A stretch of 64,000 bases of DNA from Thermasporomyces composti (lineage in GTDB: Bacteria; Actinomycetota; Actinomycetes; Propionibacteriales; Actinopolymorphaceae): positions 3,844,001 to 3,908,000 of the forward strand of contig NZ_QTUC01000001.1 of assembly GCF_003386795.1 (NCBI RefSeq), given 5' to 3'. This document shows, in pieces, positions 27,761 through 53,559 of the stretch; position 1 is the stretch's first letter, and each line of letters begins with the position of its first letter. Position numbers and translations under genes: made by a program. The notes below the pieces were generated by a model, which had not been told where the DNA came from, did no database searches, and saw only the letters and a program-made list of their open reading frames with translations.

Positions 27761-27818
27761 GTCCTATCGAGGACACGACACTGGCCCGAGGCCGCCGAGA
27801 TCATCTACGGTGATCACG

Positions 27819-27832
27819 GGAAATCGATTTCC
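27819..27832. promoter_or_regulatory. LacI-family-type operator upstream of the GH172 gene
   Basis: GGAAATCGATTTCC is a perfect 14-bp palindrome with the central CG and GAAA/TTTC arms typical of operators bound by LacI/GalR regulators of sugar genes. It lies 25 nt before the start of the GH172 gene, so a bound repressor would block initiation. No LacI-type gene is present in the window. Confidence 0.65.
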
Positions 27833-27857
27833 AACCTCGTGTCCCCGTGAGGAGCCG

Positions 27858-30749
27858 ATGCGTCGGATCGTTGCCTCGCTCGTCGCCTCCGTCCTTCCGT
27901 TCGGTGGTCTCACCGGCACCGCTCTCGCGGCCGACCGTCCCTCGGACGAACGGCTGCGGGAGACCCTGGCTCATGCCAGTGGCGCTCCCGCACCGCGTCT
28001 TGGCCCGGTCGGCTGGGAGACGTACCGCCACCCCGAGCGACTGGCCGAGATCGGCAATGCCGCGCGCACCCGACAGTTCTCCAGCTTCGACCGTGGCGGA
28101 GGCAACAACGACGGCTTCGAGGGCACGTACTCGTGCCTGCGCACCACCGCCTCCGGCGGCTGCGTGATCGCCGAGCACACCGGCGCGGGGGAGATCGCCT
28201 CCATCTGGTTCACCAGAGACGGCGGCGACGTCTCCCAGACGGGGACCATCACGATCGAGCTGGACGGCAGGACCGTCGTCGACGCCGACCTCCAGGACCT
28301 CGTCGACGGCAAGCTGGGAGAGCCGTTCGTCTACCCCCTCGTGGCGAACGCCGACCAGAGCTCGGGTGGCGTCTACATCAAGGTCCCGATGCCCTACCGC
28401 CACTCGATGCGGATCACGACACAGCACAACCCGTACTTCCACCACGTGACCTACCGGGAGTTCGCCAGCCCGGAGGGCATCGAGACGTTCGACCCCACGG
28501 ATCCGGCGACGGACGTGCTGGCCGCGCTCCGCGCAGCCGGCACCCGCGACCCCAAGCCGGATCTGCCGGGAGAGCGCACCACCACTCGACTAATCGACGT
28601 CGCGCCGGGCGAGACCGTCACCCTCGGCCATGCCACGGGCCCGGGCGCCATCACTGAGCTCGTCCTCCGGCTCCCGCAGCTGCAGCCGTCACCGACGGAC
28701 GAGGTGGTCGTCTCCCGCCGCACGGCCGTCGCACCGTCGCCGGTGCCCGGCAAGGCGCGGTGGGTGCGTCCGCTGGCCCGGCCAGCGGTGACGGGCGCCG
28801 TCGCCGACGAGACCGAGGAGATCCTGCGCGAGGCGCGGCTGCGGATCAGCGTCGACGGCGTGCGCACCGTCGACGCCCCGCTCGGTGAGTTCTTCGGCAG
28901 CGGGTTCGGGCTCTACCCGGTGCGTGCGTACATGTTCGGCGTCGACCCGGAGCAGCGCACGCTGTCGAGCTGGTGGCTCATGCCGTACAGCCGAGCGGCG
29001 ACGGTGGAGCTGTACAACGGCGCGGACGTCGCCCTCAACGCCGGTGAGGCACGGCTCACGGTCGCCCGCAGCGCGACCTGGAAGAGGGACCTCGAAGCCG
29101 GCCGGATCGGCTACTTCCGAGCCACCGCGGTTCGCTCCGAGGCGACGTTCGGTCGTGACCACCTGTTCCTCGACGTCACTGGTCGCGGCCGGGTCGTCGG
29201 TGTCACGCACACCGTCCAAGGTCTCAACGAGGCCGGCTGGCGTCGCGGCTACCTGGAGGGCGACGAGCGCGTCTTCGTCGACGGCTCGACCAGCCCGGAC
29301 CTGCACGGCACCGGGACCGAGGACTTCTACGAGGGCGGGTGGTACTTCAACCGGGGCGCCTTCAGCGCGCCCTTGACCGGCAGCCCGGTCCCCGACCGGG
29401 CCGACTGCCCCGCCGGTTGCACCAGCATGTACCGGCTGCTGCTGGCCGACGGCATGGACTTCGCCAGCAGCATGCGGTTCGGCATCGAGCACGGTCCGGG
29501 CAACGACGAGCCGGTCATCGAGTCGACGACGACCTACTGGTACGGCGTTGATCACGGCGGTCTGGTCTGGACCGACCACCTCGACGTGGGCGACGCAGCG
29601 AGTGAGGCCGCCCACGACTACCGCTCACCCGATCCGGGCGCGGTGGAGTCGCTGACCAGTCGCTTCGAGGGCCTGGACGGGCCACCGGAGCCTGTCACGG
29701 TCGACACGCGAGCGACGAGCGCGCCGGTCTCCTTCACACTCGCGGTCCATCCAGGCAACCACGGTGTGATCCTGCGGCGCGTCTCCGACCAGGCCGAGGG
29801 CTACCAGGCGGCGGAGGTGAGCGTGAACGGGAAGCCGGCCGGCACGTGGACTCAACCGCTGGCGAACCCGGAACAACGTCTGCTGGACGACTACTTCTGG
29901 TTGCCGGCGACGTTGACCGCTGGACGGCGGACCGTCACGGTGACGCTCCGGCCGCTCGACGGTCACGCGCCCTGGTCCGCGGCTGACTACCACGCCCTGT
30001 CCATCCGGTCGCCGTACACCGATCGCGACGCGCCGGCGCGGGTCTCAGGCCTGACTGCGCGAGGCGACGAACGCACGGCGATCACCTTGGGGTGGACGGT
30101 CGCGCGGGACGACGTGTACGCGGTGACGTACGAGGTGCACGCCTCGACGACGAAGGGCTTCACCCCGAGCGACGAGACCCTCGTCGGTGTGGCGCGGACG
30201 CCGGGGTTCGTCCACGAGACCGGCACCGTCCGCCAAACCTGGTACTACCGCGTCCGAGCGGTGGACGCGGCCGGACACGTGGGCGCCTTCTCCAGTGAGG
30301 TGAGCGCCACCACCGGCGACACCCTGCGCATCGAAGCGGAGTCGCTGCTGCCGCCGGTCGAGGCGACGGCACCTGTCCAGGTCCAGGGCAACTGCTGTGG
30401 TGTCGTGTGGTCCGGCAACGCGCAGCTGTGGTTCACCCCGACCACGTCTGGGCAGCACGTCGTGGTGGAGGTCACGCTGCCGACCACGGGGACGTACGAG
30501 CTGACGACTCGCCAGACCCTCGCCCGCGACTACGGCATCAACACCCTGACTCTCGACGGGCAGCCCATCGGCGAGGCCTTCGACGCCTACCACTTCCCAG
30601 AGGTCGTCCTCAGCGAGGCGTTGAGCTACGGCACGCACCACCTGACCGCGGGCAAGCACACCTTGACGATCGCGGTCCCCGACAAGAACCCCGCGTCGGA
30701 GAGCTACATGGCTGGCTTCGACTACTTCCAGTTCCAGCTCGTCGACTGA
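27858..30749 (+). CDS. Secreted GH172 (DUF2961) glycoside hydrolase with FN3 and carbohydrate-binding-like domains
   Basis: A 963-residue secreted enzyme, starting at ATG 27858 after GTGAGGAG. A signal peptide runs to about residue 25 (cleavage after ALA-A). The first ~620 residues form a DUF2961/GH172 domain with the hallmark GTGTEDFYEGGWYF at 484-497. Glu488 in it and Glu467 (LEGDE) are 21 residues apart, the spacing I recall for the two catalytic glutamates of bifidobacterial alpha-D-fructofuranosidase. A fibronectin type III-like domain follows (ARVSGLTA... to ATTGD), and a C-terminal beta-sandwich resembles a carbohydrate-binding module (RIEAESLLPPVEATAPVQVQ). GH172 members cleave or form difructose anhydride, or hydrolyse D-arabinofuranosides; which applies here is unknown. 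Confidence 0.85.
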   Translation: MRRIVASLVASVLPFGGLTGTALAADRPSDERLRETLAHASGAPAPRLGPVGWETYRHPERLAEIGNAARTRQFSSFDRGGGNNDGFEGTYSCLRTTASGGCVIAEHTGAGEIASIWFTRDGGDVSQTGTITIELDGRTVVDADLQDLVDGKLGEPFVYPLVANADQSSGGVYIKVPMPYRHSMRITTQHNPYFHHVTYREFASPEGIETFDPTDPATDVLAALRAAGTRDPKPDLPGERTTTRLIDVAPGETVTLGHATGPGAITELVLRLPQLQPSPTDEVVVSRRTAVAPSPVPGKARWVRPLARPAVTGAVADETEEILREARLRISVDGVRTVDAPLGEFFGSGFGLYPVRAYMFGVDPEQRTLSSWWLMPYSRAATVELYNGADVALNAGEARLTVARSATWKRDLEAGRIGYFRATAVRSEATFGRDHLFLDVTGRGRVVGVTHTVQGLNEAGWRRGYLEGDERVFVDGSTSPDLHGTGTEDFYEGGWYFNRGAFSAPLTGSPVPDRADCPAGCTSMYRLLLADGMDFASSMRFGIEHGPGNDEPVIESTTTYWYGVDHGGLVWTDHLDVGDAASEAAHDYRSPDPGAVESLTSRFEGLDGPPEPVTVDTRATSAPVSFTLAVHPGNHGVILRRVSDQAEGYQAAEVSVNGKPAGTWTQPLANPEQRLLDDYFWLPATLTAGRRTVTVTLRPLDGHAPWSAADYHALSIRSPYTDRDAPARVSGLTARGDERTAITLGWTVARDDVYAVTYEVHASTTKGFTPSDETLVGVARTPGFVHETGTVRQTWYYRVRAVDAAGHVGAFSSEVSATTGDTLRIEAESLLPPVEATAPVQVQGNCCGVVWSGNAQLWFTPTTSGQHVVVEVTLPTTGTYELTTRQTLARDYGINTLTLDGQPIGEAFDAYHFPEVVLSEALSYGTHHLTAGKHTLTIAVPDKNPASESYMAGFDYFQFQLVD

Positions 30750-41792: not shown

Positions 41793-43121
41793 TCACGTTC
41801 CACCAGGGAGCCCGCGCCCGCGGATCGACGCGTCGACCAGCTCGACCGGATGCAGGAGCGGGAGGTTGGCGTGCTCCCCGAGGTGCCGGCGGATCTGGAG
41901 CAGACAGCCGGGGTTGGCTGTCACGACGGCGTCCGGCGCCAGCGAACGGATGTTGTCGACCTTGCGGCGTCCCAGCGCTTCGGCGGCCTCGGGTTCCAGC
42001 AGGTTGAAGACTCCCGCCGAACCACAGCACACCTCCGTCTCGGGGACGTCGACCACCTCCAGGCCGGGGATTCCGCGCAGAACCGCGCGAGGCTCGGCTC
42101 GCACCCTCTGGGCGTGGCCCAGGTGACAGGCGTCGTGGTAGGCGACCCGAGCCCGCACCGGATGGCGTGGGGCGCGTGGCGCCAGCTCCGCCAGAACCTC
42201 GGTGACGTCACGCACCTTGGCGGCGAAGGTCGCGGCGCGGTCCGCCCACGCGGGGTCGTCGGCCAGCAGGCGGCCGTACTCCTTCATCGCTGACCCGCAC
42301 CCGGCGACATTGACCACGATCGTGTCGACGTCGAAAGCTTCGAACGTCGTGATGGTGTGGCGGGCCCGTTCGACGGCTTCGCGCCGCCGACCCACGTGCG
42401 TGCTGAGCGCGCCACAGCATCCCTGGCCGCGTGGGATCAGCACCTCGCACCCCTCCGCCGCGAGGGTGCGGACCGTGGCGGCGTTCACCTCGGAGAAGAA
42501 GACTCGCTGCACGCAGCCGGTCAGCAGAGCGACCGTGCGCCTCCGTTCCCCGACAGCGGCGACGCGGGTGGGAGGTCGGGTCAGCAGGTCGCGCAGTCGC
42601 GTCGGCGGAACCAAGGACTCCAGCGCACGCAACCGAGCCGGCAACCGGCCGCGCAGCCCGCTCGCACGCACCAGCCTCGCCAGGCCTGAGCGTTGGTAGA
42701 CCCACCCCCCGAGCGCGGCGAGTCGAAGCCGGCCGGGGTAGGGGAAGAGCTCGAAGATGGCTCGCCGGAACGCCCGATCACGCCACGGTCGGGTGTGGTG
42801 ACGTTCGATCTGGAACCGCATGGACTCCAGCAGCTCGTCGTATCGCACGCCTGAGGGACAGGCGGTGACACAGGCCATGCAGCCCAAGCAGGTGTCGAAG
42901 TGGCGGACGAGCGTCTGATCGAAGTCGGCCGCGCCGTGACCTACGAGGTCCATGAGGTAGATGCGTCCGCGTGGGGAGTCCATCTCCTCGCCCCACAGCA
43001 CGTACGTCGGGCAGGTCGGCAAACAGAAGCCGCAGTGCACGCAGTCGTCGATCAGTTCCGGCGCCGGCGGCTGGTGCTCGTCGAAGTTCCCCCACGCGGT
43101 GGAGCGGTTGTTCACAACCAT
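41793..43121 (-). CDS. glcF: Glycolate oxidase iron-sulfur subunit (GlcF)
   Basis: A 442-residue electron-transfer subunit. Two [4Fe-4S] clusters are indicated by CVHCGFCLPTCPTY near residues 27-40 and CLGCMACVTACPSG near 78-91. The C-terminal half has two CCG (cysteine-rich) domains (GQGCCGALSTH, CCGSAGVFNLLEPE). It passes electrons from GlcD/GlcE toward the quinone pool. ATG 43121 lies inside the end of glcE (10-nt overlap), so translation is coupled. It is the last gene of glcDEF. Lactate dehydrogenase subunits look similar; the company of GlcD and GlcE favours glycolate oxidase. Confidence 0.9.
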   Translation of the reverse strand: MVVNNRSTAWGNFDEHQPPAPELIDDCVHCGFCLPTCPTYVLWGEEMDSPRGRIYLMDLVGHGAADFDQTLVRHFDTCLGCMACVTACPSGVRYDELLESMRFQIERHHTRPWRDRAFRRAIFELFPYPGRLRLAALGGWVYQRSGLARLVRASGLRGRLPARLRALESLVPPTRLRDLLTRPPTRVAAVGERRRTVALLTGCVQRVFFSEVNAATVRTLAAEGCEVLIPRGQGCCGALSTHVGRRREAVERARHTITTFEAFDVDTIVVNVAGCGSAMKEYGRLLADDPAWADRAATFAAKVRDVTEVLAELAPRAPRHPVRARVAYHDACHLGHAQRVRAEPRAVLRGIPGLEVVDVPETEVCCGSAGVFNLLEPEAAEALGRRKVDNIRSLAPDAVVTANPGCLLQIRRHLGEHANLPLLHPVELVDASIRGRGLPGGT

Positions 43122-44296
43122 GGCGCGAACCGTCCCGGTGCGAGGCGTCCGTCGGGGTCGAGCTGCTGTTTGAGCGCCCGCAGCAGGGTGGCGCTCGTCG
43201 GCGCCGGTCCCCAGCTGGGCACGAGCTCATCGAGCGCGTGAGGACGTCGGTGGAGCGTCACGCTGCCACCCGACTCGAGGACACGCCTCCGCCAGGCGCG
43301 CACGACGTGCGCGTGCCCGTCCAGCGAGCCACCGCGAAGTCGCACGGTGTGGACACCGACGCCGAGGCTGGAGGTGAGGCTGGCCTCGACGCCGTGCTCG
43401 GCGGCGAGGGAGTCCAGCGCCGCCGCCAGCTGGGGGAGAGCGTCGGGTCGGGTGCCTGCCCGGAGAACGGTGTCCCCCTCGACGCCGCGGACCACCTCGG
43501 CGACCTGAGCCCACGTGGCGGCCTCCCGTGGGCCGTCGACGATGTCGTGGTCGACGCCCAGCGACGTGGCGGCCTTGTGGAGGCGGGTCTCCACGCCGGT
43601 CGGCGTCCCCTCGAAGCGCGCCAGCAGGGTGCCGTCGCACCAGTCCACCGCGGCCGGCTCCCACGGTGACGCGAGCAGTGTGGTGGCGTGGGTGAACGCG
43701 GTGGGAACGTCGCACGGCACGACGAGCGTGCCCGTCGCCTTCGGCCGCGGGTGGAGCCGCAGGACGACCTCCGCGACGAGGCCGAAGGCCCCGAGCGAGC
43801 CGGCGAAGAGCTTGGCCAGGTCGTAGCCGGCCACGTTCTTGATGACGTGACCGCCGGAACGGGCGACGGTGCCGTCGGCGAGGACGACGGTGACCCCGAT
43901 GACCAGGTCGCGGAGTGTCCCGTAGGTCAGGCGGAGTGGACCGCCATCAGCGGTCGCGAGCAGGCCGCCAACGGTGGCGCCCTCGGCCACCCGGGCTGCG
44001 TCGAGCGCGACCCGCTGCTCTCGCAACGTGGCGTGCAGGTCCGTGAGCGGTATCCCAGCGCCGACGGCCACCGTCATGTCGGCGGGGTTGTAGGCGAGGA
44101 CGCGGTCCAGCCCGGTGGTGTCGACCACGAGGTCGACGTCGTGGACGGGCGCTCCCCACGACTGCGCCGTCCCCGTGCCCCGGATCAGCACCCGCTGGCC
44201 GGCGCGGGCGGCCGCCACGAACACGTCGCGCGCCTCGCGCAGGTCGCGTGGGCGCGCGACCTGCGGGCTGGCGAGGTCAGAGCCGCTGGATGACAC
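43112..44296 (-). CDS. glcE: Glycolate oxidase FAD-binding subunit GlcE
   Basis: A 394-residue flavoprotein subunit of the FAD_binding_4 type. The N-terminus carries VLIRGTGTAQSWGAPVHDVD, then AEGATVGGLLATADGGPLRLTYG, the FAD-pyrophosphate loop, and GHVIKNVAGYDLAKLFAGSLG, which is diagnostic for GlcE. The C-terminus ends DPDGRLAPGRF, as in this family. The GTG start at 44296 overlaps the end of glcD by 20 nt. It works with GlcD and GlcF to oxidise glycolate to glyoxylate. Confidence 0.92.
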   Translation of the reverse strand: MSSSGSDLASPQVARPRDLREARDVFVAAARAGQRVLIRGTGTAQSWGAPVHDVDLVVDTTGLDRVLAYNPADMTVAVGAGIPLTDLHATLREQRVALDAARVAEGATVGGLLATADGGPLRLTYGTLRDLVIGVTVVLADGTVARSGGHVIKNVAGYDLAKLFAGSLGAFGLVAEVVLRLHPRPKATGTLVVPCDVPTAFTHATTLLASPWEPAAVDWCDGTLLARFEGTPTGVETRLHKAATSLGVDHDIVDGPREAATWAQVAEVVRGVEGDTVLRAGTRPDALPQLAAALDSLAAEHGVEASLTSSLGVGVHTVRLRGGSLDGHAHVVRAWRRRVLESGGSVTLHRRPHALDELVPSWGPAPTSATLLRALKQQLDPDGRLAPGRFAPWL

Positions 44297-45731
44297 CGGC
44301 CGCCTCCAAGGGGTGTGGACGGTACGGGCCCAGGCGCTCGCCGCAGAGGCGCGGTGTCGGCAGGACCTTGCCCGGGTTGCAGAGCGAGTCGGGGTCGAAG
44401 GCGCGGCGTACCCGGTCCATGACCGCCAAGTCGTCTCGGCCGAACATCACCGGCATCGAGCAGGCCTTGTCGGTGCCGATTCCGTGTTCGCCGGACAGTG
44501 ATCCGCCCAGCTCGACGCACAGCTCCGCGATCGCCTTGGCCAGCCGCTCGGCTCGGTCGTGCTCGCCGCGGCTCTCGTCGTAGAGGACGAGCGGATGGAG
44601 GTTGCCGTCGCCGGCGTGGAAGACGTTGGCCACCCGCAGCCCGGCGTCGTGACTCATGACCGTGATGCGGCGCAGCGCCTCGGCGAGCCGGGTCCGGGGA
44701 ACCACGCCGTCTTGGACGAAGTAGTTCGGGCTGATCCGGCCCATCGCGGCGAAGGCGGCTTTGCGACCGGTCCAGATCCGCGCCCGCTCGGTCTCGTCGC
44801 CGGCGACCCGAATCTTCGTCGTTCCGTGGCGGTGGCACAGCTCGCGCACCGCGTCGAACGTGGCGTCGCATTCGTCGACCGGACCGTCCAGCTCCACGAT
44901 CAGCGCGGCCGCGGTGTCACGGGTGTAGCCGGCGGCGACCGCGGCCTCGGCCGCCTCGATGGCGAGCTGGTCCATGATCTCCAGGGCCGCGGGGACGATT
45001 CCGGCAGCGATGATCGCGGTCACGGTGTCACCGGCCGCTTCGATGGTGGGGAAGTCGGCGAGCAGGGTCCGCACCGACTCCGGCTTGCGGAGCAGCCGGA
45101 CTGTCACCGAGGTGACCAATCCCAAGGTGCCTTCCGACCCGACGAACACTCCCCGCAGGTCGGGTCCGGCCACCTCCGGGGACGGGCCGCCGAGCACGAC
45201 CTGGCTTCCGTCAGGCAGCACGACGTCGAGGGCGAGTACGTGGTGCGTGGTGAAGCCGTACTTCAGGCAGTGGGCACCGCCGGAGTTCTCCGCGACGTTG
45301 CCGCCGATGGTGCACACCTGCTGGCTCGACGGGTCGGGCGCGTAGTACAGGTCGTACGGCGCGGCCGCCCGGCTGATCGCCAGGTTCGTGACACCCGGCT
45401 CCACGACGGCCCGTCGGTTGACCGGGTCCACTGTCCGAATCGCCCGCATGCGCTGGAGGGAGATCACCACACCGTCGGCCACAGGCAAGGCACCACCGGA
45501 CAAACCCGTCCCGGCGCCCCGGGCGACGAACGGGACGCGAGCGCGATGGCAGGCGGAGACCGCGGCCGCGACCTCGGCCGCCGAACCCGGCAGCGCCACC
45601 AAGGCCGGCGTCACGCGGTAGCCGGCGAGCCCGTCGCACTCGTAGGTCCGCAGCTCGAGGGGATCGCTGATGACCCAGCGCGGCCCGACGATGCTCGCGA
45701 GCTCCTCGCGCAGGCGTTCGATGACGGTCAT
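44277..45731 (-). CDS. glcD: Glycolate oxidase subunit GlcD
   Basis: A 484-residue FAD-linked oxidase that oxidises glycolate (or D-lactate) to the keto acid. The start is ATG 45731 after GGGAGGG. The FAD domain shows FVARGAGTGLSGGALPV, GGNVAENSGGAHCLKYG and GVFVGSEGTLGLVTSVTV. The C-terminal catalytic domain has VFHAGDGNLHPL and SGEHGIGTDK, the metal/flavin His pairs typical of the family, then FDPDSLCNPGK. First gene of glcDEF. The malate synthase gene 1.8 kb upstream would consume the glyoxylate formed. Confidence 0.93.
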   Translation of the reverse strand: MTVIERLREELASIVGPRWVISDPLELRTYECDGLAGYRVTPALVALPGSAAEVAAAVSACHRARVPFVARGAGTGLSGGALPVADGVVISLQRMRAIRTVDPVNRRAVVEPGVTNLAISRAAAPYDLYYAPDPSSQQVCTIGGNVAENSGGAHCLKYGFTTHHVLALDVVLPDGSQVVLGGPSPEVAGPDLRGVFVGSEGTLGLVTSVTVRLLRKPESVRTLLADFPTIEAAGDTVTAIIAAGIVPAALEIMDQLAIEAAEAAVAAGYTRDTAAALIVELDGPVDECDATFDAVRELCHRHGTTKIRVAGDETERARIWTGRKAAFAAMGRISPNYFVQDGVVPRTRLAEALRRITVMSHDAGLRVANVFHAGDGNLHPLVLYDESRGEHDRAERLAKAIAELCVELGGSLSGEHGIGTDKACSMPVMFGRDDLAVMDRVRRAFDPDSLCNPGKVLPTPRLCGERLGPYRPHPLEAAGVIQRL

Positions 45732-45804
45732 GGCCCTCCCGCTGGCAGGTGTGCCACGACCCACGCTAGTCGGTGGGGCGCCGTCGAGGGCGGCCCGAAA
45801 GCGG

Positions 45805-47514: not shown

Positions 47515-49122
47515 GTGCGGAACGTGGTCGACATCACGGTGACCGGTCCCCCTGTCGAGCGAGCGGACGAGATTCTCACCAGTGACGCTCTGGCGTTCCT
47601 GGGAGAGCTGCATGAGCGGTTCACCGACCGGCGCGACGATCTTCTGAGACGTCGGGCCAAGCGTCGCGAGGAGGCGGCGCGGGCCGGTCGCCTCGACTTC
47701 CTCCCCGAGACCCGCGAGATCCGCGAGGATCCGTCGTGGCGGGTCGCGCCCGCCCCACCCGACCTCCAGGACCGCCGCGTCGAGATCACCGGTCCGACCG
47801 AGCGCAAGATGACGATCAACGCGCTCAACTCCGGGGCCAATGTGTGGCTCGCCGACTTGGAGGACGCCAACACGCCCCACTGGGCGAACGTCGTCGGCGG
47901 GCAGGTGAACCTCTACGACGCGATCAGGCGGCGGATCTCGTTCACCTCACCGGAGGGGAAGTCCTACACCTTGCGGGAGGACGGTCGCCTGGCCACCATC
48001 GTCGTCCGGCCCAGGGGGTGGCACCTCGACGAGCGCCATCTCACCGTCGGCGGCCGACCGTTGCCCGGCGCCTTGGTCGACTTCGGGCTCCACTTCTTCC
48101 ACAACGCCAAGGAGCTGCTCGAGCGGGGCAGCGGGCCGTACTACTACCTGCCCAAGATGGAGAGCCACCTCGAGGCGCGGCTGTGGAACGACGTCTTCAC
48201 CTACGCCCAGCAGCGCCTGGGGATCCCGGTGGGCACGATCCGTGCGACGGTGCTCATTGAGACCATCCCCGCGGCGTTCGAGATGGAGGAGATCCTCTAC
48301 GAACTGCGCGAGCACGCGTCCGGGCTCAACGCCGGCCGCTGGGACTACCTGTTCAGCATCATCAAGTACTTCCGGGACGCCGGCCCGTCGTTCATCCTGC
48401 CTGATCGCAACGCCGTGACCATGACGGCACCGTGCATGCGCGCCTACACCGAGCTGCTCGTGAAGACCTGCCACCGCCGCGGGGCGTTCGCCATGGGTGG
48501 CATGGCCGCCTTCATCCCGAACCGCCGTGACCCAGAGGTCACCGAGCGAGCCCTGGCCAAGGTGCGGGCCGACAAGGAGCGCGAGGCGAGCGACGGCTTC
48601 GACGGCTCCTGGGTGGCCCACCCCGACCTCGTACCGATCTGCAAGGAGGTCTTCGACACCAAGCTCGGCGACCAGCCCAACCAGCTTGACCGGCTGCGGG
48701 ACGACGTCCACGTCACCGCCGACCAGCTCCTCGACATCGCCGCGACGCCGGGCTCGGTCACCGAGGCGGGGCTGCGCAACAACGTCGCGGTGGCCCTGCG
48801 GTACCTGGCCGCCTGGTTGGGAGGCAACGGCGCGGTCGCCATCTTCAACCTCATGGAGGACGCCGCGACGGCGGAGATCGCCCGCAGCCAGATCTGGCAG
48901 TGGATGAACAACGGGGTCAAGCTCGACACCGGGGAGACGGTGACGGCCGACCTGGTCCGCCGCATCGAGGACGAGGAGCTGGCGCGAATCCGCTCCGAGG
49001 TGGGGGACGAGGCCTTCGTCCGCGGCGACTACGACCGTGCGCGGGAGCTGTTCGAGCGCGTGGCGTTGGCGCCTGACTTCGCCGACTTCCTCACTCTTCC
49101 GGCGTACGCGATGATCGACTGA
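47515..49122 (+). CDS. aceB: Malate synthase A
   Basis: A 535-residue enzyme that condenses glyoxylate with acetyl-CoA to malate. GTG 47515 or GTG 47524 may be the start (GGGGAAGGGAAG upstream). The family signature occurs as [13 protein letters not shown], with acidic residues in [19 protein letters not shown]. The N-terminal [24 protein letters not shown] and [19 protein letters not shown] are also typical. The sequence fits the malate synthase A (TIM-barrel) type rather than the larger G type. It is convergent with the secreted protein gene, with only 3 nt between the stop codons. It is located by glcDEF, so it would use the glyoxylate. Confidence 0.95.
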
Positions 49123-49125
49123 CCC

Positions 49126-51861
49126 CTAGCGCGGGGCGGCCGGTGCTCGGTCGACCCGGACGTGGCGTGGCGAGGTGTCGGGGAGATCGACGGTGAACGT
49201 CACTCGACCGCGCTCGACCCGCGTGGGCACGGGCACGTCGTCCACGACGACCGTGGGGTTCGACCCGAAGCCGCGCAGTGACACCGACGCCGTCCCCGCC
49301 GCGTAACCCCGGACGGTCAGGGTGAGTGAACGGCCGGGGTGGTGTGCGGTGACGTCGACGTCGACATCGACGCTCGGGCTGACCGCGACGGGGAAGGGCT
49401 TCAGGGCAGCCGGGGACGTGGTCGCCCGCACCTGGTACAGCACGGGGTAGCGCAGCACGTCGGCTCGCATCGCCAGCCGGTAGGCCTCGACGTACCGGCC
49501 CTGGGTGAGGCGAGCCTTCGCCTCCCGCAACAGGTCGCGGGACCGCGTGTCGTCAGGGCCGATGTCCGCGCTGATGTGCCGGATGGCGTCGGCGGCGTCG
49601 CGCCGCCACTGGATGACCAGGCTGCGGTCCCGTTCGGTCGGCATGTCCAGGCCGACCCGGAGGGCGAGGTCGCCGTCGACGGTGGGGAACGCGTACGCGG
49701 GCACGCCGTCACCGGCCACCTGCTCGACCGTCACGGTGTAGTCCTGGCCCCGCTCGAGGGCGACGACGGGAATCCCGAACGTCGCCCAGCCGGAGGTGGG
49801 GACCTCAGCAGCGCCGAGGTGACGCATCGCGACGATCCTGCCCTCGTCGTCGGACAGGGTGAGACGCAGCGGTGTCGGGCGACCGATCCGCTCGACCCGC
49901 ACGTCGACGTGGTTGGCCAGCCGCACGTCGCCCGCGGTGAACGTCGTCGTCACCGTCCGCAGGCCAGGGAGGCGACCGTTCGGTGGTGCGGACCGGTCGA
50001 CGTCGAAGGGGTGCATGTCGTCGATGAACGCGTTGACCCACGCGGCCGCGGCGTCGGGGCCGGTCTCCTGCCAGTTGTAGATCGAGGTGTAGCGCGAGCC
50101 GTTGACGTAGGTCTGGCGCAGCAGGAGCGTCTTGTCCGGGCCGTAGCCGGACACGGAGTTCTCCAGGTTGGGGTTGGCGATCCGACCGAACTCCCGCATC
50201 CGTTGCAGGTGGGCGAAGCCGCCTTTGGTGTAGTCGTCGAGCGTGATGTACTCCGCGCCGGGGCGGGCGTGCTGGACGACACCTTGGATGCTGCTGGGGT
50301 GCGTGTCGGCCCAGTACGGCTCCTGCATGCGGGAGTAGACCTCCGCGTGCACGTTGTGCCGCCGCATGTCGGTCGGATACCGCACGCCGTCGGGTCCGGC
50401 CTCGACGCGCTCGCGGGGGAGACCGGCGTAGAAGATGTCGGCGAAGAGCTGCTGCGGATAGGACTGGTTCTTGTACAGCCAGCGTTTCTCCGCCTCCGAG
50501 AGCCCGTCGGTCGGGTCGAGCTCCACGCCGTCCGCCCGGGCGGCGGCGACCGTGCTCGGGTTGAAGTCGGCGTAGAGGTCACGACGTTCGACGCCGTCGT
50601 TGTAGTCGGTGTACGCCTGGTCGGCCACGCCCTTGCCGTCGCGCTTCGACCAGTACGTGCTCTCCATCGTCGTGGAGAAGTCCAACAGCCGATCGCCCTC
50701 ACCCTGCCGCTGGAGGTCCCACGCCAACGCGCGGATCAGCTCCAGCGACTCGTTCGCCTTCTGCTCGAGGTAGGCGTTGAGGTCCGGGTCGCGCCAGGTC
50801 AGCCACGGTGTGCTGCCCCAGATGTTCGGCACCGACAGGCCGTACCGCGGCTCGTACCGGTCTCCCAGCAGCTCGTCAAGCCGCTGACCCTGGTAGACGT
50901 CCTTGTCCGGACCGGTGCGGTCCTGCGGGCTCCACAGGATCTGCTGGTACCTGATGTCGCCGAAGGTGCCGCCTTTCCCGTCGGGAATCCGGGACGGGGT
51001 TCCCTCCCAGTCGCTGGTCGACTCGATCGCGAAGGGCAGCCCGTACTCGCGGCTGAGCCGCAACCACAGCTCGTAGTTCGCCCGCATCTGTTCCTTGGTG
51101 CGGACCGGGAAGTAGTCCAGCACCGCCATCCCGAGGCCGACGTCCGACGACTCGTGGACGTGGTCGCGCACGTAGTCCAGGCGCGACCGGAAGTACGCCT
51201 CGCCACGGTGGTCCTGACCGAGCACGAAGATCACCCGGTCGGGCACCCGCATGCCCTGGTCGTGGACCATCGCGGGGAGATCCGTGTACGCCCAGATCTC
51301 GGTCAGGTACGCGGGCTCGGCGCTGGTGCCCTCGACGGTCACCACCACGACGCCGTCCCGGAGCACCTCCGGGTCGGCGGTGTCGAGGAAGAACGACGAG
51401 TACGGCCCGCCACCTGGGTCCGGTATCCGCGCGTCCCGAACGTAGTGCGGGATCCCGTCGAGCAACAGGCGGAACCCATACGGCTGGCCCCAGGTCTCGT
51501 TGGGTCGGACCTCCCTGACCTGTAGCGTCAACGGTCGGCTGCGGTCGACCGCGAGTCGGACGCTGAACCGACCGCCCCTTCTGACCACTCGAGCGATGTA
51601 GGACTCGGTGATCTGTCCCGCCTCCACGTGGCAGGCGGTCCGAGCGGTCGCTCCGGACGTGCGGAGGCGGTGGGCGGCCTCGCTCGCGGGGTCACCGAGA
51701 CGCACCTGGTCGGAGACACCGACGGCCGCGGCGCGCGGGGCGTGGGCACGTGGGGTGGACTTCGCGGCCACGGCTTCGGTCTCGCCGCCGACGAGACTGG
51801 CCGAGCCCAGGGCCATCACGAGGAGGAGTCCGAGGAGTCCCGTCCCGGCGTGTCGGCGCAT
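49126..51861 (-). CDS. Large secreted protein of unrecognised family
   Basis: A 911-residue exported protein, starting at ATG 51861 after AAGGAG. A signal peptide is visible (GLLGLLLVMALGSASLVGG, ending near AVAA). Residues ~100-190 look like a beta-sandwich (RFSVRLAVDRSRPLTLQVREV). The central ~200-620 may be a TIM-barrel-like domain with aromatic and acidic runs (MESTYWSKRDG, VYSRMQEPYWADTHP, GYGPDKTLLLRQ, YNWQETGPDA). C-terminal beta domains follow (VDVDVDVTAHHPGRSLTLTV). A glycoside hydrolase is plausible from the layout and from the GH172 enzyme elsewhere in the window, but I recognise no family or catalytic pair. It ends 3 nt from the convergent malate synthase stop. Confidence 0.75.
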   Translation of the reverse strand: MRRHAGTGLLGLLLVMALGSASLVGGETEAVAAKSTPRAHAPRAAAVGVSDQVRLGDPASEAAHRLRTSGATARTACHVEAGQITESYIARVVRRGGRFSVRLAVDRSRPLTLQVREVRPNETWGQPYGFRLLLDGIPHYVRDARIPDPGGGPYSSFFLDTADPEVLRDGVVVVTVEGTSAEPAYLTEIWAYTDLPAMVHDQGMRVPDRVIFVLGQDHRGEAYFRSRLDYVRDHVHESSDVGLGMAVLDYFPVRTKEQMRANYELWLRLSREYGLPFAIESTSDWEGTPSRIPDGKGGTFGDIRYQQILWSPQDRTGPDKDVYQGQRLDELLGDRYEPRYGLSVPNIWGSTPWLTWRDPDLNAYLEQKANESLELIRALAWDLQRQGEGDRLLDFSTTMESTYWSKRDGKGVADQAYTDYNDGVERRDLYADFNPSTVAAARADGVELDPTDGLSEAEKRWLYKNQSYPQQLFADIFYAGLPRERVEAGPDGVRYPTDMRRHNVHAEVYSRMQEPYWADTHPSSIQGVVQHARPGAEYITLDDYTKGGFAHLQRMREFGRIANPNLENSVSGYGPDKTLLLRQTYVNGSRYTSIYNWQETGPDAAAAWVNAFIDDMHPFDVDRSAPPNGRLPGLRTVTTTFTAGDVRLANHVDVRVERIGRPTPLRLTLSDDEGRIVAMRHLGAAEVPTSGWATFGIPVVALERGQDYTVTVEQVAGDGVPAYAFPTVDGDLALRVGLDMPTERDRSLVIQWRRDAADAIRHISADIGPDDTRSRDLLREAKARLTQGRYVEAYRLAMRADVLRYPVLYQVRATTSPAALKPFPVAVSPSVDVDVDVTAHHPGRSLTLTVRGYAAGTASVSLRGFGSNPTVVVDDVPVPTRVERGRVTFTVDLPDTSPRHVRVDRAPAAPR

Positions 51862-51910
51862 GGGCGCTCCTTCGCTGTCGAGGCGTCGGGCGCATCGTCG
51901 ATCACACGGA

Positions 51911-51945
51911 ACGGCCGGTCAACGCGCGTGGCGTCGACCGGCCGT
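51911..51945. terminator. Hairpin downstream of the accD operon
   Basis: ACGGCCGGTC and GACCGGCCGT, perfect 10-bp arms around a 15-nt loop, lie 114 nt beyond the accD stop on the minus strand. There is no T run. Probable end of the fab operon transcript, or a leader structure of the secreted protein gene. Confidence 0.45.
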
Positions 51946-52058
51946 GCCCAGACCATCTCCGGCCAGCGAGAGGCCTGGTCGTTCAGTCCCGCCACGACCC
52001 CCGCGGCAAGCGGCGCTCGACCCTTGCGGTGGGCGAAGGCCGCCTGGACCGCCGTGGA

Positions 52059-53510
52059 TCACAGCGGAATGTTGCCGTGCTGTCCCCGACGCTCCTCCGC
52101 GGCCGCGAACGCCTCGGCGATACGTGAGCGGGTCTGCTTGGGGGAGATCACCTCATCGACCACGCCGAGGGCGACCGCCTTGTCGATGCCGCCGACGATC
52201 TGCTGGTGCTCCGCGGCGAGCTCGGCCTCCACCTTCGGACGCAGCTCCGGATCGACCTCGGCCAGCTTGCGCCGGTGCAGGATGCGGACCGCCGCGATCG
52301 GGCCCATGACCGCGATCTCGGCCTGCGGCCAGGCGAACACGGTGGTGGCGCCGAGCGCGCGGGAGTTCATGGCGATGTAGGCGCCGCCGTAGGCCTTCCG
52401 CGTGATGAGCGTGATGCGGGGCACGACCGCTTCGGCGAAGGCGTGCAGCAGCTTGGCGCCGCGTCGGACGACGCCGTCCCATTCCTGGCCGACACCGGGC
52501 AGGTAGCCAGGCACGTCGACGATGACGAGCAGCGGCACGCCGAAGGCGTCGCACATGCGCACGAAGCGCGCCGCCTTCTCCGCCGACGTGGAGTCCAAGC
52601 AACCGCCAAGGCGGAGCGGGTTGTTGGCGATGACGCCGATCGTTCGACCGCCCAGGCGGCCGAGCGTGGTGACGACGTTCGGCGCCCACTTGGGGTGCAG
52701 CTCCAGGCTGCTCCCGGGGTCGAGCAGCTGCTCGATGAGCGGGTGCACGTCGTACGCACGTTTCGGCGACTCCGGCAGGAAGTCCGACAGGTCCTGGTCG
52801 CTGACCACCTCCAGGTTGACCCGCCCCTGGTTGGCGAAGAAGGCCGCGAGCCGGCGAGCCTCGGCCAGCGCGGACTGCTCGGAGTCGGCGATGACGTGGA
52901 CGACGCCGGATCGGCGACCGTGTGGTTCCGGCCCACCGAGCCGCAGCATGTCGACGTCCTCGCCGGTCACCGAGCGCACGACGTCGGGGCCGGTGACGAA
53001 GATCCGACCCTCGGGGCTGAGCACCACGATGTCGGTGAGCGCGGGACCGTACGCCGCGCCTCCCGCGGCCGGTCCCACGACGACCGAGATCTGCGGAACC
53101 CGACCCGAGGCCTTCGTCATGGCGTGGAAGATTCGCCCCACCGCGTGGAGGGACAGCACACCTTCCGCGAGCTGGGCGCCCGCGGCGTGCCACACCCCGA
53201 TGATGGGGACCTGGTCGGCGACGGCGCGCTCGTAGGCGCGGACGACCACGTCGCAGCCGGCCTCGCCCATGGCGCCACCCTTGATGGTGGCATCGGAGCA
53301 GAACGCCACGACGCGGTTTCCCTCGATGGTGCCGGTGACGGCGAGCATGCCGCTGTCGTCCTCGGGTGTGAGGAGCTCCATGCTGCCCTCGTCGAGGAGG
53401 GCCGCGAGCCGGTGACGCGGGTAGCGGGGATCCTGCTCGCGTGGCGGCTTGGCCGGCTTGGCAGCGGTGTCGGCTGGCCGGACGCCGATGGCTTTCTCGC
53501 TGACGGTCAC
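52059..53510 (-). CDS. accD: Acyl-CoA carboxylase carboxyltransferase (AccD, beta subunit)
   Basis: About 483 residues from GTG 53510 (AAAGGGAC upstream; TTG 53531 is a weaker alternative). Two crotonase-like halves: an N-terminal oxyanion region GGAAYGPALTDIVVLSPEG and a C-terminal RKAYGGAYIAMNSRALGATTVFAWPQAEIAVMGP. It transfers CO2 from biotin to acetyl- or propionyl-CoA and supplies malonyl-CoA for fatty-acid synthesis. It is the last gene of fabD-fabH-acpP-fabF-accD, matching the place of accD6 downstream of the kas genes in mycobacteria. No biotin carboxylase alpha subunit is encoded nearby. Confidence 0.92.
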   Translation of the reverse strand: MTVSEKAIGVRPADTAAKPAKPPREQDPRYPRHRLAALLDEGSMELLTPEDDSGMLAVTGTIEGNRVVAFCSDATIKGGAMGEAGCDVVVRAYERAVADQVPIIGVWHAAGAQLAEGVLSLHAVGRIFHAMTKASGRVPQISVVVGPAAGGAAYGPALTDIVVLSPEGRIFVTGPDVVRSVTGEDVDMLRLGGPEPHGRRSGVVHVIADSEQSALAEARRLAAFFANQGRVNLEVVSDQDLSDFLPESPKRAYDVHPLIEQLLDPGSSLELHPKWAPNVVTTLGRLGGRTIGVIANNPLRLGGCLDSTSAEKAARFVRMCDAFGVPLLVIVDVPGYLPGVGQEWDGVVRRGAKLLHAFAEAVVPRITLITRKAYGGAYIAMNSRALGATTVFAWPQAEIAVMGPIAAVRILHRRKLAEVDPELRPKVEAELAAEHQQIVGGIDKAVALGVVDEVISPKQTRSRIAEAFAAAEERRGQHGNIPL

Positions 53511-53559
53511 GTCCCTTTCACTCCGGTGCAAGTCAAGGCATGCGCGGGGTGGTTCCCGC

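Follow-up and report, generated by a model that had tools for sequence, protein, structure and literature searches.

A probably secreted 911-residue protein with an orphan core and an N-terminal domain shared with actinobacterial glycoside hydrolases

The window, which is the whole stretch of 64,000 nucleotides that was analysed, carries on its minus strand a gene for a 911-residue protein, the sole gene between an accD-type carboxyltransferase gene and a malate synthase gene, and there is no sugar gene in that interval. The features referred to below are the following:

27810-30749, plus strand: secreted DUF2961 (GH172-type) protein with the same accessory domain at 29571-29987 (A5 profile)
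47515-49122, plus strand: malate synthase, convergent (Pfam MS domains, PF01274)
49126-51861, minus strand: whole gene, 911-residue, probably secreted protein with orphan core (open reading frame and homologues)
49135-49404, minus strand: C-terminal sandwich II, residues 820-909 (AlphaFold and structural alignment)
49453-49629, minus strand: helical segment, residues 745-803, with predicted helices at 747-766, 772-786 and 790-800 (AlphaFold)
49642-49986, minus strand: C-terminal sandwich I, residues 626-740, carbohydrate-binding-module-like (AlphaFold and structural alignment)
49996-51276, minus strand: orphan core at residues 196-622, conserved and presumed to be catalytic (conservation; no relatives beyond the three sequences)
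50662-50664, minus strand: codon of E400 in FSTT[ML]ESTYW, inferred candidate acid/base (invariant in 3/3 sequences)
51292-51726, minus strand: N-terminal domain, residues 46-190, common to GH78, GH172 and GH127 proteins (profile matches)
51763-51861, minus strand: signal-peptide-like leader, residues 1-33 (by eye)
51908-51948, no strand: inverted repeat in the gap from accD to the 911-residue gene, arms of 18 nt (89%)
52059-53531, minus strand: accD-type carboxyltransferase gene, upstream (PF01039)

The open reading frame starts with ATG, is preceded by GAAGGAG and has a third-codon-position GC of 0.91. Compared with its two homologues, the differences at codon positions 1, 2 and 3 are 0.257, 0.216 and 0.397 in one case and 0.295, 0.233 and 0.458 in the other, so that the third position is the most divergent and the second the least, the pattern expected for a protein under selection. 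The gene called by the first-pass annotation is real, and the coordinates bear out the tail-to-tail packing with malate synthase that it described (3 nt between the stops). Judged by eye in the three sequences, a hydrophobic leader resembles a Sec signal peptide; in the 911-residue protein it ends near AVAA. The sole cysteine is residue 77, and there is thus no lipobox; inspection of the C-terminus by eye revealed neither a cell-wall anchor nor a transmembrane stretch. The inverted repeat upstream of the gene is likely the accD terminator or a leader hairpin. An inverted repeat of different sequence, also with 18-nt arms, occupies a similar place in Actinopolymorpha pittospori (L005:7642-7685), and none was detected in the 455 bases tested in a second homologue-bearing genome (G001).

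Family searches with the whole protein yielded nothing above threshold. Pfam gave PF07715 (Plug) alone at E = 0.0035, below the cut-off, and NCBIfam gave NF052674 at E = 0.067, also below threshold, both of which were regarded as chance. There was no match in PADLOC or PHROGs (one homologue matched phrog_28171, which has no function, at E = 0.003), the best PDB sequence reached only E = 0.2, and the two homologues matched zero Pfam families at E up to 1. None of 79 viral contigs matched, the only plasmid hits were two records at E = 0.2 in sugar isomerase genes, and a single-sequence scan of the genome contig collection gave a match in none of 23 candidate stretches. The earlier statement that the protein belongs to no recognised family therefore holds for the protein as a whole and for its core; it fails for the N-terminal domain, which recurs in many proteins and overlaps DUF6805 in two GH127 proteins, as described below.

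Full-length homologues were found in 3 of 57 related genomes, namely the source genome, G001 (64% identity) and G007 (65%), and this search included eight genomes of the family that holds all three. One of the two other genomes, both from the same family as the source, is A. pittospori. A scan of the genome contig collection with the three-sequence alignment, which registers only places with one of two short peptides and so is not exhaustive, returned two loci, A. pittospori DSM 45354 and a GH115 protein. A literature search returned nothing for DUF6805/PF20620 or 'Actinopolymorpha pittospori'.

The N-terminal domain has a far wider distribution. When the best few candidates per genome were scored, the full-length profile had matches confined to the N-terminal region in six other genomes among 394 (E = 8.9e-6 to 3.1e-4), and of the five among these six proteins that were read, two are GH78 rhamnosidases, one is a DUF2961 protein and two are large and secreted but of no clear family. 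A related pair of large secreted proteins from actinobacteria (L032:1822-6477 and L033:1314-6701) share the same N-terminal domain and have no Pfam family above the cut-off. A profile built from eight N-terminal-type domains (A5) produced 44 hits, which came from 24 of the 54 genomes searched. After leaving out three members of the protein's own family, two GH78 members of the profile itself and two pieces of one place without a single open frame, 37 carriers remained, one in the window (the DUF2961 protein) and 36 elsewhere. The catalytic domains of 35 of the 37 are glycoside hydrolase domains (19 DUF2961, 14 GH78 and 2 GH127); 35 of the 36 carriers outside the window were scanned jointly (18 DUF2961, 13 GH78, 2 GH127) and the 36th, checked apart, is a GH78 protein, while a separate check revealed no overlap between the 18 DUF2961 carriers and those with GH78 or GH127. 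Of the other two, one is Cip1-like and one is a trypsin-type protease, the latter being the weakest A5 match (E = 6.7e-4). DUF2961 is here taken to correspond to GH172 (PMC8605356, PMC10115798). In both GH127 proteins (L100 and L102) the A5 match overlaps DUF6805, and the N-terminal domain may therefore be related to PF20620, though no more than distantly; the Pfam model itself matches neither the 911-residue protein nor anything in the three homologue-bearing genomes. No Pfam model lies over the N-terminal-type domain in 11 of 13 carriers read singly.

At the other end of the protein, two regions were modelled usefully by AlphaFold, in an otherwise poor full-length model (mean pLDDT 40). Structural alignment with VIA-align placed residues 621-740 beside carbohydrate-binding and lectin sandwiches (the BT0996-C carbohydrate-binding module and a phloem lectin, both Z 8.6), and residues 820-909 beside C-terminal domains of glycosidases (Ams1 mannosidase, Z 8.9; beta-galactosidase, 8.6; GH29 fucosidase, 8.2), although Z values of this size may, according to the tool's own note, reflect a merely common arrangement. 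For 820-909 a virus tail protein ranks best (Z 10.6). Phage baseplate and capsid proteins also occur among the matches, with phage and capsid ones for 621-740. The predicted folds are thus like those of carbohydrate-binding-module-type sandwiches and glycosidase C-terminal domains, but identity is 1-23% and Z is middling in the rows shown. At such middling scores, the sandwich-like ends proposed from the sequence are supported for the C-terminal domains. Foldseek rows of the full model were discarded (TM-scores of about 0.1 over long alignments, top rmsd about 20).

Between the terminal domains, the core (196-622) is 75-78% identical to the homologues. Three-way identity per 50 residues is 58-82% over 201-600 and 9-48% in the other blocks; conservation that is high in the middle and lower towards the ends would be expected where accessory domains flank an enzyme core. 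An AlphaFold model of the core, run with two sequences, was unusable (mean pLDDT 32). From the sequence, strand-like and helix-like stretches appear to alternate as in a TIM barrel, and the invariant FSTT[ML]ESTYW probably falls where a strand ends. The core profile (A3) recovered those three genomes (3 of 293 in the order), and at E < 0.01 only the source genome among 396 genomes of the phylum, the best few candidates per genome being scored. Matches in two of these 396 genomes (E = 0.0145 and 0.0957) were rejected as short and weak, as were those in 9 of 247 Bacteroidota genomes (E = 0.016-0.09), which were regarded as chance; by eye, four of these nine are proteins that we take to be a peptidase-like protein, a TonB-type receptor and two TatD-type proteins. 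Selected proteins from the weak Bacteroidota matches rank first against the core, with 35.8 bits at best, which is uninformative because they were picked for similarity to it. Against 15 protein sets, the core profile scored 12.8-21.5 for 14, like shuffled controls (12.5-23.1); the sole exception was GH115, at 31.6, aligned over only 22 residues. A test of DUF2961 gave no PF11175 match, and the core scored like shuffles against the DUF2961 set.

The genomic setting was compared among relatives. Malate synthase lies less than 8 kb downstream of accD in five of five genomes (G002-G006) and about 15 kb from it, past sugar genes, in A. pittospori, where the order is the homologue, GHL6 and GHL10 hydrolase-like genes, an ABC sugar importer, a LacI regulator, an enolase-type gene, an SDR gene and malate synthase. 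An enolase-type protein is present in the interval in 6/6 relatives (PF13378 was checked in one), and a GHL6 hydrolase-like gene with a LacI regulator in two of the six (G005 and A. pittospori); A. pittospori also has the homologue of the 911-residue protein, the GHL10-like gene, the SDR gene and the ABC sugar importer. A close orthologue of accD is missing from G001 (45%), whose homologue of the 911-residue protein is at a different locus. With contents that vary and that include sugar genes in relatives, the stretch between accD and malate synthase has the look of a slot into which such genes fit. A gene adjoining malate synthase in A. pittospori (L115:8476-9735), which we assume to be transposase-like, would fit an interval that gains and loses genes.

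Taken together, the protein is somewhat more probably than not a secreted glycoside hydrolase of several domains, with a catalytic core from an undescribed family. Support comes from the leader judged by eye, the strongly conserved core, the C-terminal alignments, the sugar genes beside the A. pittospori homologue, and the N-terminal domain, whose other carriers are nearly all large proteins that bear a glycoside hydrolase catalytic domain. Against it count the virus and phage proteins among the structural matches, the two carriers that are not hydrolases, the absence of sugar genes from the interval in the window and the different location of the gene in G001. Like the secreted actinobacterial DUF2961/GH172 and GH78 hydrolases, the 911-residue protein is large, probably secreted and equipped with the same accessory domain; it differs from them in that their catalytic domains are absent, its core is unlike the DUF2961 or GH78 sets, and the accessory domain is N-terminal, whereas theirs follows the catalytic domain. 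This agrees with the glycan link in the earlier description as a 'glycan-active or adhesive enzyme' (its 'aromatic/acidic runs' being a loose characterisation), while the enzyme core and the TIM barrel are what we infer from the sequence, two AlphaFold models being unusable.

A diverged member of GH115, and hence an alpha-glucuronidase, was suggested by a match between residues 176-442 and a Bacteroidales GH115-GH67 fusion (22% identity, E = 2e-5; 1.5e-6 in a pairwise run) and by an alignment of the whole-protein profile with three GH115 proteins over 173 columns, which at probability 10% and E = 0.003 was counted as no support, although of all the checks it spoke least against GH115. When the core was ranked against a set of 379 open reading frames and three GH115 proteins, masking of 13 residues at a short shared peptide lowered the GH115 score of the core in the window from 32.7 to 24.3 bits and its rank from 3 to 9; masked or not, the rank of GH115 was 8 for the G001 core (26.9 bits, E = 0.5) and 11th or lower for the A. 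pittospori core. The core profile matched nothing in the genome of the fusion, and PF15979 (Glyco_hydro_115) had no match in the 911-residue protein or its genome, though among the 98 genomes searched two others were positive, as were two control genomes. What is shared with GH115 is the short peptide QGMRVPD and the strand-like stretch after it; beyond these no likeness outlasts the controls. The apparent match is best explained by the scan, which picks matches by a short shared peptide. With the masked ranking, the null core profile, the 22-residue core alignment and the missing PF15979, we consider GH115 membership very improbable. The fusion protein (L006:6939-11882, from a Bacteroidales metagenome-assembled genome) itself joins two kinds of alpha-glucuronidase, GH115 and GH67, each complete, in one polypeptide.

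Other readings share part of the evidence. Accessory domains can occur on non-hydrolases, as one of the 37 carriers is the trypsin-type protease and one the Cip1-like protein, and the domain sharing would also suit another type of secreted carbohydrate-active enzyme, such as a polysaccharide lyase, an esterase or a trans-glycosidase, that has the same accessory domains around a core not yet described. The Cip1-like carrier (L087) has the domain at its N-terminus, as the 911-residue protein does, with a weak match to Cip1-like polysaccharide lyases (E = 0.00021, below the cut-off), but it has no similarity to the core, and with 35 of 37 carriers being hydrolases we regard such an enzyme as unlikely, at about one chance in a handful. 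A non-catalytic glycan-binding or adhesive surface protein, to which the binding-module-like end domains and the lack of a recognised catalytic family would be suited, is less probable still: the centre is the most conserved part, whereas typical adhesins have fast-changing repeats, and inspection of the C-terminus by eye gave no sign of a wall anchor or a transmembrane segment. Nothing found favours adhesion over catalysis. For a secreted enzyme acting on something other than glycans, such as a peptidase or phosphoesterase, one can cite the protease carrier, which is the weakest match, and the short weak core matches that include proteins presumed to be TatD-type and peptidase-like; Pfam and NCBIfam gave no peptidase family match, however, and the homologue in A. 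pittospori lies among sugar genes, which leaves this reading improbable.

Returning to the glycoside hydrolase reading, the core matches no family found and may therefore start a new family of sugar-cutting enzymes. In its fuller form, to which we give slightly less than even chances, this proposal makes the core the founder of a glycoside hydrolase family that is new and has an undescribed catalytic layout; it would be restricted to a few members of one actinobacterial family and, in two of these, kept at the accD-malate synthase interval, which would act as a slot for sugar-breakdown genes. The core would be an alpha/beta, perhaps TIM-barrel, hydrolase cutting an extracellular glycan by acid/base catalysis with carboxylates, with E400 as the first candidate acid/base and E280, E286, D542, D543 and E567 as further invariant candidates, all guesses from three sequences; profile searches found no relative of the core with a known activity. 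The flanking sandwiches may hold the substrate, and the freed sugars would be imported and their breakdown finished inside the cell. Genes at 41793-45764, near malate synthase, which we take to be of glycolate-oxidase type (two of the three were scanned by Pfam), would together with malate synthase suit a sugar route ending in glycolate and glyoxylate; that the imported sugars enter such an oxidative route is speculation.

Should the core prove to be a new hydrolase family, its activity or bond specificity is not one that could be guessed from sequence today, and if the source is, as we guess, a compost thermophile, the protein could be heat-stable. What is new here is the orphan core and the wide sharing of the N-terminal domain, while the kind of protein is familiar. 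The N-terminal domain also offers a practical handle for finding more unrecognised sugar enzymes in actinobacteria.
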